The notes beneath the pieces were generated by a model. That model ran no database searches. It had not been told where the DNA came from and saw only the letters and a list, made by a program, of their open reading frames with translations. Positions 45,800 to 50,952 of a stretch of 57,880 nucleotides of DNA are shown here, one piece after another. The DNA is taken from contig CAJWIT010000008.1 in the NCBI GenBank assembly GCA_913041945.1, positions 1 to 57,880 on the forward strand. Direction: 5' to 3'. The first letter of the stretch is position 1. Every line of letters starts with the position of its first letter. Source of the stretch: an uncultured Fidelibacterota bacterium (lineage in GTDB: Bacteria; Fidelibacterota; Marinisomatia; Marinisomatales; UBA8229). The position numbers were made by a program, and so were the translations under genes.

Positions 45800-48376
45800 T
45801 CAATTAGCATACTCTTTTATTTTTTTCACGCTTCCATCTGGATTGTAGAAAGTCCACGCTCCCAGCAATTTATTATTAAGACAAACTCCTTCTAACTTTT
45901 TCTGTCCATTTTGAAACCAAAAAGTAAACTGACCGTCCTTTTGCCCCTTCTTGTAATTTCCTTCAATTTTTATGTTGCCATTTGCCCACCACGCTGTCCA
46001 GCTTTGGTCTCTCTTTCCTTCCTTGTGGAAATATTGACGTTTCTTCTGGCCATTTTCATGCCAGGCGATCCACGATCCATTTTTTATCCCGTCTGCGAAA
46101 GAACAATCAAGTTTCTTTTGTCCATTTTCATACCAGATACTAAACTGGCCATCCTTTTTATTGGCCTTGTAATTGCCTTCAAGTTTTGTGTTCCCATTTG
46201 CCCACCACACTGTCTGTGTGTGGATTTTTTTCCCTTTAACATAGAAATAATGATGTTTCTTGTTACCATTTTCATACCAGACGGTCCAGTTTCCGTCCTT
46301 TTTTCCATTTACATAAGAATACTCAAGTTCCTTTTGCCCATTTTCGTACCATTCCAGCCGAGGTCCATCAGGAATGCCATTTGCATAATGCATCTCTATT
46401 TTTTTATTTCCGTTATCATACCACTCCAGCCTGTCCTGGCTAAATTTACCCTTCACATCATACTGATATTTCGCATTTACGTTTCCGCTGGGGTAGTAAA
46501 TAGTCCAATCCCCGTATCTCCCGTTTTGGGGAATGCCTGATAGTTCATGCACATTGCCTCCATCGCCCCTGAGAAACTGTCCTTCTGCTTTTGTAACACC
46601 GTCGGGGTAATAATAAGTCCACATCCCATCCATTAATTCATCTTTATATGAACCTTCCACCTCTTTATTTCCATTGTCATAGTATGAATAAATAAAACTC
46701 CTTTCATCGACAAGTTTCCCATTCTTGTAAGTTCCTTTCCACTTTTTGTCTCCATTTTTATGCCAGGTGATAAACTGGCCATCCTTTTTATCCTTCTTGT
46801 AAGTTCCTTCAATTTTTGTGTTCCCATTTGCCCACCACGCTGTCCAGTTTTGGTTTCTCTTTCCTTCCTTGTGGAAATATTGACGTTTCTTCTGGCCATT
46901 TTCATGCCAGGCGATCCACGATCCATTTTTTATCCCGTCTGCGAAAGAACAATCAAGTTTCTTTTGTCCATTTTCATACCAGATACTAAACTGGCCATCC
47001 TTTTTATTGGCCTTGTAATTGCCTTCAAGTTTTGTGTTCCCATTTGCCCACCACACTGTCTGTGTGTGGATTTTTTTCCCTTTAACATAGAAATAATGAT
47101 GTTTCTTGTTACCATTTTCATACCAGACGGTCCAGTTTCCGTCCTTTTTTCCATTTACATAAGAATACTCAAGTTCCTTTTGCCCATTTTCGTACCATTC
47201 CAGCCGAGGTCCATCAGGAATGCCATTTGCATAATGCATCTCTATTTTTTTATTTCCGTTATCATACCACTCCAGCCTGTCCTGGCTAAATTTACCCTTC
47301 ACATCATACTGATATTTCGCATTTACGTTTCCGCTGGGGTAGTAAATAGTCCAATCCCCGTATCTCCCGTTTTGGGGAATGCCTGATAGTTCATGCACAT
47401 TGCCTCCATCACCCCTGAGGAACCTTCCTTTTGCTTTTGTAACACCGTCAGGGTAATAATAAGTCCACATTCCATTCATCAATTTGTTTTTATAGCTGCC
47501 TTCCTTCTTTTTATTTCCATTATCATAATAGTCTACATACACATTACCTGTGTAAGGATTTAATTTTTTTCCTACACTTCCATCCTCATTGTAATAAGTC
47601 CACAATCCCACAATTTTATCATTTCGATAAACTCCTTCCATTCTCTTTTTTCCATTTTCATACCAAAAAGTAAACTGGCCGTCCTTTCGTCCCCCCTTGA
47701 AATTTCCTTTAACTTTTGTATTGCCATTTGGCCACCACACTGTATGGATATGGAATTCTTTACCTCTATCATAGAAATAATGATGTTTCTTATCCCCATT
47801 TTCATACCAGGCGATCCATTCTCCATCCTTTTTTCCATTTACATAAAGATGATCAAGTTTCTGTTGTCCATTTCCATACCATTCCATCCAGGGCCCATCA
47901 AGAGTGCCCTTTACATAATGCATCTCTGTTTTTTTATTTCCGTTATAATGCCATTCTAGTTTGACCTGATCAAAATCTCCATCTATGTATTGATATTTCG
48001 CATTTACGTTTCCGCTGGGGTAGTAAATAATCCATTCCCCGTTTCTCCCATTTTGGGGAATGTCTGATATTTCATGAACATTTTCTCCATCACCCCTGAC
48101 AAACTGTCCTTTTGCTTTTGTCACACCGTCAGGATAATAATAAGTCCATATTCCATCCATCAATCCATCTTTATATGCACCTTCCATCTTTTTATTTCCA
48201 TTAGCATAAAGGTCTAGCACCTTACCAGTGTAGGGTTTATCTGTCCTTGGTGTATATACTAAACCATCAAGAGTATCTAAGTAGTCAACGTAATATAGTG
48301 CTTTCCAATTAACCTGTGAAAACAAAGAGGCGGTAAATAGGCTTAGTGATAATAATGTTAGGATTCTTTTATTCAT
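45800..48376 (-). CDS. MORN_2 (YwqK-like) repeat protein, secreted
   Basis: Signal peptide; many W.aWYENGxKKxExxYxxGKxDGxW repeats. Confidence 0.92.
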   Translation of the reverse strand: MNKRILTLLSLSLFTASLFSQVNWKALYYVDYLDTLDGLVYTPRTDKPYTGKVLDLYANGNKKMEGAYKDGLMDGIWTYYYPDGVTKAKGQFVRGDGENVHEISDIPQNGRNGEWIIYYPSGNVNAKYQYIDGDFDQVKLEWHYNGNKKTEMHYVKGTLDGPWMEWYGNGQQKLDHLYVNGKKDGEWIAWYENGDKKHHYFYDRGKEFHIHTVWWPNGNTKVKGNFKGGRKDGQFTFWYENGKKRMEGVYRNDKIVGLWTYYNEDGSVGKKLNPYTGNVYVDYYDNGNKKKEGSYKNKLMNGMWTYYYPDGVTKAKGRFLRGDGGNVHELSGIPQNGRYGDWTIYYPSGNVNAKYQYDVKGKFSQDRLEWYDNGNKKIEMHYANGIPDGPRLEWYENGQKELEYSYVNGKKDGNWTVWYENGNKKHHYFYVKGKKIHTQTVWWANGNTKLEGNYKANKKDGQFSIWYENGQKKLDCSFADGIKNGSWIAWHENGQKKRQYFHKEGKRNQNWTAWWANGNTKIEGTYKKDKKDGQFITWHKNGDKKWKGTYKNGKLVDERSFIYSYYDNGNKEVEGSYKDELMDGMWTYYYPDGVTKAEGQFLRGDGGNVHELSGIPQNGRYGDWTIYYPSGNVNAKYQYDVKGKFSQDRLEWYDNGNKKIEMHYANGIPDGPRLEWYENGQKELEYSYVNGKKDGNWTVWYENGNKKHHYFYVKGKKIHTQTVWWANGNTKLEGNYKANKKDGQFSIWYENGQKKLDCSFADGIKNGSWIAWHENGQKKRQYFHKEGKRDQSWTAWWANGNIKIEGNYKKGQKDGQFTFWFQNGQKKLEGVCLNNKLLGAWTFYNPDGSVKKIKEYAN
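46011..46564. repeat. Copy A of 554-bp internal direct repeat, 846-bp offset
   Basis: By eye identical to 46857-47410; divergence begins immediately outside. Confidence 0.9.
46857..47410. repeat. Copy B of 554-bp internal direct repeat
   Basis: See copy A. Confidence 0.9.
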
Positions 48377-48707: not shown

Positions 48708-48823
48708 TATTTAAGATAGTGTTACATTTCCTTAACTAATTATAGCGTTGCCCAGATATTTTTAAACAGAGTAAATTGGATTTAGAAATAATTATTATTA
48801 ATCAACAGAAAGGAGGTGATCAG

Positions 48824-48871
48824 TTGTCTAATCCTAGTAGAAAGCTGACCTCCAGAGGATCAGCATCTTAA
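48824..48871 (+). CDS. Candidate 15-aa peptide MSNPSRKLTSRGSAS (TTG start)
   Basis: AGAAAGGAGGTGATC Shine-Dalgarno with 7 nt between GGAGG and TTG; stop TAA at 48869-48871. Confidence 0.45.
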   Translation: MSNPSRKLTSRGSAS

Positions 48872-48917
48872 CACAATGCTCTGTTGACTTCATTGGAGGT
48901 CGGCAAACATACTGAAT

Positions 48918-48948
48918 AAACAAAGTCCCCAAAATGGGGACTTTGTTT
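48918..48948. terminator. Rho-independent terminator-like hairpin
   Basis: aaacaaagtcccc-aaaat-ggggactttgttt, 13-bp perfect stem. Confidence 0.85.
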
Positions 48949-48984
48949 GTTTATGACAAGTTTTTTTGTAAGAGGAATTGAATA

Positions 48985-49083: not shown

Positions 49084-50952
49084 TTATTTATCTGAATTTT
49101 TTATTTTATTAACATCAATTGGTTTTGACAATCCCATATAAAAAGCTAGAAACCACATGACAAATATCCCATAAAGTAAAAACAGTAATTGCCATACCCA
49201 GAGAGAAGGTAGCCCAAAAGGAGCCCAGGTAATTGGATTATTAGGATCCGAAAACAATGTATTCCCGATTGTTGCAAAAGGTCCAAAGCCAATTAGAAAC
49301 CATACAAGAGTTAATATCCACGCAAAAGAAACTAGCTTTTTTCTATCCGGGGATAATCCTGAAACAGATTGCAAGAATTTATGACGTTTGACTTTACGAT
49401 TATTTTTTTCACTCGGATCTGGGAAAAGAAATGACCCTAAAACTACGGTTATTAGGTTTACCAATATTCCCCATCCTGCACTGTGAATTGTTAATGGATA
49501 TGCACCCCAGGGGACACCAAACCATGCTGAAGTCTTGTCAGTTAAAGTCACAGCAATTAATCCTGCGATTAATCCTGAAACGACACCTTTTGTGGACAAC
49601 TTCGGGAAATAACATAATCCCAAAAGTGCGGGATACATTTGGAAACCATAGGCCACCGCTAATCCTCCAAGCATTACAATTGCCTGCGTGGACTTTGCTG
49701 CTACAATCAGGGCTGCTGCTGCCACTATGATCACAAACAATCTGCCGAAAAACTTCTGTGTTTTGTCCGAAGCATCTTTAGAAAAAAAGTGTCTATAGAT
49801 ATCCCTGGTTACCATCCCGCTGAAAGTAGACATGTAAGCCGCTCCGGTGCTCTGCATGGCTGCAAGAGCACAGACTGCCAACAGTCCGACTAGCCACGGA
49901 GCTGAAGATGACATCAAATTGATTAACTGTGGAACCAGATTTTTATCAGTGGTGTTTTTCAATATTCCATTTGATTCCAGGATATGGCCACCCAATCCCT
50001 GAAATATGGTGAAGGTAAACAAAATAATGCCGATTATCACTGATGAAGCTACTACCTGCTGCCAGCGAAATGCCCCGCTGGTTTTATTGGAGAATGACCA
50101 CATGGAAAATGCAGGGGAAGACTGGATTCCCATTAGAGCAAACATGTAGGTCATGCACATGATTCCTGTCCAGGGGCCGCCAATTGATTTTGATCCGCTT
50201 GATACAAACTGAATGGAACCGGGGATAGCAACTCTGGATGAAAATCCATCCGGAGTAATCCTGCTTTTTGAGGCAATATCCTGGGACACAATTTTTGATA
50301 ATCCGATTTTAAATCCTTCCCAACCTCCAGAAAAATGAATTGTGATACACCCCAAAATCACAATTCCCAGTGCCAGCAGGATACATTGAACACAATCCAC
50401 GTAAGCAACTGAGCGCAGCCCTCCGCTGGCCACATAGATCACAACAATTGTTGACAAGGCAAACATCCCAACCTCAACCGAGATCAAGCCATCCGTCAGA
50501 ACATGAAACAGATCACCGGACGCCCGGAGTTGAACTCCCAAGTAAGGGACACTGAATAAAAATGCAACCAAAACTGTTAACATACGAATTGTGTCACCGC
50601 CATAATAATCGCTGTACATTTCGCCAGGAGTAATGTATTTATATGCTTTTCCCAGCACCCACTGTCTTCTTAAAAATAATACACCTGTAAAAGGAATGGT
50701 TAATGCATAAAAGGATGCAAATGCATAAGGGAGACCATCTGTGAATATTTTACCGGGATGTCCAATAAATGTCCAACCGCTGAAACTGGTAGCGGTTGCA
50801 GCCAACACAAATACCCAGATTCCAATAGACCTGCCGGCTAGAAAATAGTCAGCAGAGGTTTTGGATGATTTTGCCCCTTTAAAGCCCCAATAAAGGCAGT
50901 AGGTCCAGTACAGACCTACAAAACTAAAAAGCCAAAATAATTTTGGATTCAT
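49084..50952 (-). CDS. Sodium:solute symporter (SSS family)
   Basis: SADYFLAGRSIGIWVFVLAATATSFSGWTFIGHPG; polytopic. Confidence 0.92.
   Translation of the reverse strand: MNPKLFWLFSFVGLYWTYCLYWGFKGAKSSKTSADYFLAGRSIGIWVFVLAATATSFSGWTFIGHPGKIFTDGLPYAFASFYALTIPFTGVLFLRRQWVLGKAYKYITPGEMYSDYYGGDTIRMLTVLVAFLFSVPYLGVQLRASGDLFHVLTDGLISVEVGMFALSTIVVIYVASGGLRSVAYVDCVQCILLALGIVILGCITIHFSGGWEGFKIGLSKIVSQDIASKSRITPDGFSSRVAIPGSIQFVSSGSKSIGGPWTGIMCMTYMFALMGIQSSPAFSMWSFSNKTSGAFRWQQVVASSVIIGIILFTFTIFQGLGGHILESNGILKNTTDKNLVPQLINLMSSSAPWLVGLLAVCALAAMQSTGAAYMSTFSGMVTRDIYRHFFSKDASDKTQKFFGRLFVIIVAAAALIVAAKSTQAIVMLGGLAVAYGFQMYPALLGLCYFPKLSTKGVVSGLIAGLIAVTLTDKTSAWFGVPWGAYPLTIHSAGWGILVNLITVVLGSFLFPDPSEKNNRKVKRHKFLQSVSGLSPDRKKLVSFAWILTLVWFLIGFGPFATIGNTLFSDPNNPITWAPFGLPSLWVWQLLFLLYGIFVMWFLAFYMGLSKPIDVNKIKNSDK

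Follow-up and report, generated by a model that had tools for sequence, protein, structure and literature searches.

A putative free-standing small mRNA with an extended Shine-Dalgarno sequence and competing folds in Neomarinimicrobiota

The locus and its relatives

The window, that is, the whole 57,880-nucleotide stretch of contig CAJWIT010000008.1 that was analysed, contains a gap of about 700 bp flanked by two minus-strand genes, one for a MORN-repeat protein (45800-48376) and the other for a sodium:solute symporter (49084-50952). The MORN-repeat protein is 858 residues long and has two near-identical internal blocks, which show as duplicated antisense and out-of-frame ORFs. Within the gap, a compact gene-like unit occupies positions 48748-48948 of the plus strand. 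The unit begins with promoter-like boxes, TTGCCC (48748-48753) and TAAATT (48772-48777), separated by an 18-nt spacer. These are followed by an extended Shine-Dalgarno sequence (SD), GAAAGGAGGTGATC (48808-48821), a complement of the 16S rRNA 3' end, and by a 15-codon ORF, MSNPSRKLTSRGSAS (48824-48871), which starts with the TTG at 48824 and stops with the TAA at 48869-48871. Codons 8-10 of the ORF, encoding Leu-Thr-Ser, form an in-frame anti-SD segment, GCTGACCTCC (48844-48853), for which the SD and a 3' arm, GGAGGTCGGC (48895-48904), are alternative pairing partners. The 3' arm is an SD mimic that, judging by pairing counts and predicted folds, would compete for the anti-SD. A hairpin, AGCAT/ATGCT (48862-48880), holds the stop codon in its loop, and most relatives have comparable but different hairpins. 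The unit ends with an intrinsic-terminator hairpin of 13 bp (48918-48948); hairpins of differing sequence lie at the equivalent place in relatives, which agrees with the terminator proposed in the initial annotation.

That annotation had located the sequence elements correctly throughout, including the strands of an outer helix, tcaacag (48802-48808) and ctgttga (48881-48887), proposed to close a three-way junction. Only 3 of 30 homologues, each belonging to the window's own genus, have this outer helix in full, and the junction was given up. Upstream of the 30 homologues, TTG and TAAnnT boxes are conserved at a spacing of about 18 nt and, because of this conservation, we infer a promoter here, though a simple sigma-70 scan of the window did not flag the boxes. 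Rfam gave no match at gathering score anywhere in the window, and a tRNA/tmRNA search of the window found none. Weak Rfam hits other than CC2171, discussed below, were set aside, as they mostly follow the terminator hairpin. The element appears to be a free-standing gene, whose RNA, as bounded by the promoter-like boxes and the terminator, would be about 165 nt long.

In a DNA search covering 100 relatives, the element turned up at 88-96% identity within the genus and at 75-89% in other families. The flanking genes differ between genera, and the downstream gene is often on the other strand. When a gapped SD/anti-SD pattern was used, with spacings of 12-26 nt allowed, 24 of 245 genomes of the phylum matched, all at a length of 39 nt, and the reversed control pattern had 0 matches in the same genomes. 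A covariance model built from the 30 distinct homologues detected the element in 33 of 244 Neomarinimicrobiota genomes at E<1e-17, once per genome; in addition to these 33, G059 has a partial copy at a contig end. Weak matches to the model came from six genomes of a different family and order in the same class. These second-order relatives share the plan of the element: CGAAAGGAGGTGGTCCATTGTCT or a near version of it, CCTCC at the matching position, a 3' arm that has changed, and a terminator. The CCTCC is thus retained despite the changed arms. The second-order ORF has 14 codons in five of the six and 20 codons in the sixth, L241 (genome G193), where the SD is a full 16-nt complement, there is no stop at codon 15 and the frame runs on to 20 codons.

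A looser pattern was run against 84,980 species genomes. Apart from Neomarinimicrobiota, some of which have just "bacterium" as their title, it matched in a few other taxa (Azospirillum, Thiobacillus, Polyangia, Chlorobiaceae, Akkermansia and Methanosarcinales). The matches in these other taxa were rejected, being apparently protein-coding sequence with the rest of the element absent. The SD-start pattern was found in 0 of 297 genomes of a Bacteroidota sample, and no viral copies of the Marinimicrobia form were found. The recurrence of the element is far beyond chance.

The extended Shine-Dalgarno sequence and the two predicted helices of the anti-SD

The 16S 3' end was not found in this incomplete assembly and was read from other members of the order, including element-bearing ones, as GGCTGGATCACCTCCTTTCT. 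Genomes of the order, the element-bearing G069, G076, G085 and G140 among them, carry the 16S end GGCTGGATCACCTCCTTT, which mostly goes on with CT where more of it was read. In the window and the main family the SD is a contiguous complement of this end over 14-15 nt and is conserved across genera, which upholds its description in the initial annotation as near-perfect; in L241, of the sister order, the complement, GAAAGGAGGTGATCCA, extends to 16 nt. The SD:16S hybrid has a calculated energy of -26.8 kcal/mol, an outlier among the window's genes, for which the best value is -14.4 and the median -7.8 (36 genes, long ORFs). The genome contains the exact sequence AAGGAGGTGATC at two places, the other of which is not followed by a start codon at the spacing seen in the element. 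Judged by its complementarity, the SD would rank among the strongest possible ribosome docking sites.

The two mutually exclusive helices that had been proposed from the sequence, sharing CTGACCTCC, are conserved across genera. Among the 30 homologues, standard pairs fill 99.6% of the pair cells of the anti-SD/SD helix and 96.7% of those of the anti-SD/3' arm helix, and sliding the partners by one to three columns lowers these values to 20-54% for both helices. The consensus of the 3' arm is GGAGGTCRGC, a downstream SD mimic. Changes in the helices of the main family are one-sided and mostly preserve G-U pairing; neither helix has any double compensatory change among the 30 homologues, and RNAalifold found no compensatory pairs in the main family. 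With changes of this kind, covariation in the main family is proof neither for nor against the helices. The compensatory changes that the initial annotation had set as its test were thus not seen in the main family. In the second order the exclusive helices seem to be re-created with different arms, which differ on both sides in places (GCTAAC/GTTAGC, GCCGGC/GCCGGT and AGT/ACT). Since these arms were placed by hand, and since single-sequence shuffle tests were clearly significant in only two of the six, the double changes are graded as suggestive.

Folding was predicted thermodynamically, for one strand and with the RNA free of ribosomes and proteins. Transcripts cut before the 3' arm are predicted to have a masked SD (unpaired probability <0.1) in 26 of the 30 homologues. 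For the full element the fold with the 3' arm is favoured in 23, and is within 1.2 kcal/mol in the other 7. The model thus predicts that the SD is masked until the 3' arm has been made. The fold z-score for 48798-48960 is -7.0, a value partly owed to the terminator; with the terminator removed, the mean z over the 30 homologues is -3.1. An alternative local hairpin, GCTGA/TCAGC, visible in the sequence, would put CCUCC in its loop.

The short ORF and the probable function of the element

The 15-codon TTG-initiated ORF of the initial annotation was upheld, in that all 30 homologues keep a start, a stop and the frame. The start is TTG in 25 and GTG in 5, with ATG in none; the stop is TAA in 28 and TAG in 2; and 26 of the ORFs are 15 codons long, the other 4, from one subclade, having 16, with the frame kept. 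The encoded peptides are polar and not conserved. Over close pairs, dN/dS is 1.35 for codons 2-7 and 1.19 for codons 11-15, and the peptide is therefore without sign of selection. Residues 3-7 and 11-15 vary freely and only Leu8 and Ser10 are invariant, an invariance explained by the anti-SD, which occupies those codons. Codons 8-10 (CTG-RCC-TCC) show zero synonymous changes across the homologues, which points to a constraint on the RNA. Because the peptide drifts, the selected feature is likely to be translation or ribosome binding rather than the peptide.

The reading that we favour, and consider reasonably probable, is that the element is a free-standing small mRNA of the rre kind, the extended SD of which captures 30S subunits, with two competing folds gating the ribosome site. 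The transcript of about 165 nt would capture 30S subunits through a hybrid of 14-15 bp between its SD and the 16S anti-SD, and translation from TTG or GTG, probably poor, would yield a non-conserved peptide of 15 residues. In an unfinished RNA, or one with no ribosome loading, the anti-SD of codons 8-10 would pair with the SD and mask it; the 3' arm, once made, would take the anti-SD and expose the SD. The resulting anti-SD/3' arm helix, predicted to be stable, begins 20 nt after the start codon and should hold an initiating or early-elongating ribosome. Given a strong docking site, a weak start and a stable helix downstream, the RNA should capture ribosomes well and release them slowly. Since the peptide drifts while the SD, frame, anti-SD and arm are kept, we infer that what is selected is the capture of ribosomes, with its consequences for the RNA, most likely as control of the RNA's own stability or as titration of 30S subunits.

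Alternatively, the element could be a trans-acting antisense RNA, with an incidental ORF and a CCUCC segment that pairs with SD regions in target mRNAs. The gene appears to be free-standing, GCTGACCTCC is the most constrained block outside the SD, and the GCTGA/TCAGC hairpin would present CCUCC in a loop, all as such an RNA would have it. We nevertheless consider this unlikely: an incidental ORF does not fit the preservation of start, stop and frame in 30 of 30, the GAAA...GATC extension of the SD beyond GGAGG would be left without a role, and the two intramolecular arms would compete with any target. Quite unlikely, too, is a dual-function RNA whose 15-residue peptide is an active product, as reported for Spot 42 or the trp attenuator RNA. 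The conserved ORF length, the frame kept by the one-codon variant and the Ser that 20 of the 22 distinct 15-codon ORFs have at codon 2 would suit an active peptide, but the dN/dS of about 1.2-1.35 and the free variation at residues 3-7 and 11-15 do not, and the invariant Leu8 and Ser10 are accounted for by the anti-SD.

An attenuator or leader role had been among the functions suggested initially, and exclusive helices followed by a terminator hairpin do resemble attenuators. A 5' leader, attenuator or riboswitch for a downstream gene is nonetheless very improbable: the alternative pairing does not involve the terminator, and the downstream genes vary among genera, often lying on the opposite strand as do the flanking genes of the window, which argues that the element is not a leader or attenuator. 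We give next to no credence to a type I toxin mRNA, in which the SD is likewise masked by long-range pairing, since the masked SD (as predicted) and the tiny ORF are here coupled to polar, drifting peptides rather than a hydrophobic conserved toxin, and to a single copy per genome.

Comparison with rreB, rreR and CC2171

Small mRNAs with an extended SD are the subject of Hahn et al. 2017 (RNA Biol 14:1353; listed among the references of PMC7298713). Our search of Pseudomonadota recovered 14-codon genes encoding VSYxKRCHLAGIAR (L168-L173) and 18-codon genes encoding MSHGSA...R (L177-L182), with the same SD. These are apparent members of rreB and rreR. Small mRNAs with extended SDs are not known to have been described before from outside the Alphaproteobacteria. 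rreB is reportedly a small mRNA of Bradyrhizobiaceae whose SD spans 17 nt and whose 14 codons begin with GTG; it is said to sediment with 30S subunits and to be weakly translated, and rreR is said to have 18 codons. RNAs of the rre type reportedly combine an SD complementary to 16S over at least 16 nt, a short ORF of constant length, a non-ATG start and a free-standing gene with 30S co-sedimentation, weak translation and a stability that depends on the start codon.

The element resembles rreB and rreR in being, to judge by its layout, an apparently free-standing RNA of about 165 nt with an SD complement of about 14-17 nt, a non-ATG start, a terminator and an ORF that is very short and fixed in length, at 15 codons as against their 14 and 18. 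Against the reported length of at least 16 nt, the contiguous complement is 14-15 nt in the window and main family, and 16 nt in L241. The ORF has 15 or 16 codons in 30 of 30 homologues and 14 codons in five of six sister-order relatives; the starts, TTG in 25, GTG in 5 and ATG in none, are weak throughout; and the promoter-like boxes and terminator are conserved while the flanking genes are not. By analogy with the reported behaviour of rreB, the element would likewise bind 30S subunits and be weakly translated. It differs from rreB and rreR in belonging to a different phylum, in using mostly TTG rather than GTG, in lacking purifying selection on the peptide and in having, further downstream, an SD mimic as a predicted rival for the anti-SD. 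No homology of the peptide to the apparent RreB and RreR was seen when they were compared by eye. Other genes of this appearance turned up in the searches. L142, L143, L148 and L151, on IMG/VR contigs classed as viral but possibly representing provirus host flanks, are rreB-like genes of 14-16 codons with an extended SD. In L183, which belongs with the 18-codon genes (MSHGSAMGSVQFVRETRR), the sequence GGATCACCTCC, 72-85 nt after the start and beyond the ORF, perfectly complements the gene's own SD.

The closest catalogued family is CC2171 (RF01867), a Caulobacter RNA typed as sRNA by Rfam. No other site in its genome matches CC2171 as well as the element does (25.4 bits, E 0.0015); the gathering score, 75 bits, is far higher. 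GAAAGGAGGTGATCNN(G/T)TGTCT is common to both, with identical spacing, and in both a 3' arm lies ahead of the terminator. In CC2171, however, the 3' arm pairs with codons 3-5, a consensus helix absent from the window's element, in which the arm pairs with codons 7-10. The CC2171 members examined, from Alphaproteobacteria, mostly have ORFs of 18-26 codons, and in many of them the frame includes a mimic of the 16S 3' end; the one in L115, CTGGATCGTCGCCTCCG, is predicted to lock the SD. More broadly, the alphaproteobacterial sequences matching or resembling CC2171 (L110-L141 and L157-L185) have ORFs for VSHCH...TWxxAS, MSHGSA...R and VSYxKRCHLAGIAR behind an extended SD, and many have an in-frame 16S 3'-end mimic able to pair with their own SD. 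This "non-coding" family now looks like small mRNAs.

Spot 42/SpfP and rnTrpL/peTrpL are dual-function small RNAs with functional peptides. They share with the element a small RNA with an ORF of 14-15 codons, but have no extended SD, and their peptides function where that of the element drifts.

A layout that was not known outside the Alphaproteobacteria is now seen in a distant uncultured marine phylum, which suggests a wider class of ribosome-regulated RNAs, and the in-frame anti-SD, the competing SD mimic and the unselected peptide suggest that ribosome capture may itself be the function. We raise as a tentative and rather doubtful idea that the Marinimicrobia element, CC2171 and rreB/rreR form one cross-phylum class of ribosome-docking RNAs with a built-in copy of the 16S anti-SD, usually in-frame, so that the SD is contested between that copy and free 30S subunits. 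If so, these RNAs would sense or buffer free 30S subunits, or 16S 3'-end maturation, and the peptide would be a by-product. The likeness may reflect either common descent or convergence on the same ribosomal target. Exact sites for mutation are provided by the analysis and can be used in culturable relatives. In sum, its score sets the element apart from CC2171 and its peptide sets it apart from rreB, and so it would be a variant that works like these RNAs rather than one of them.
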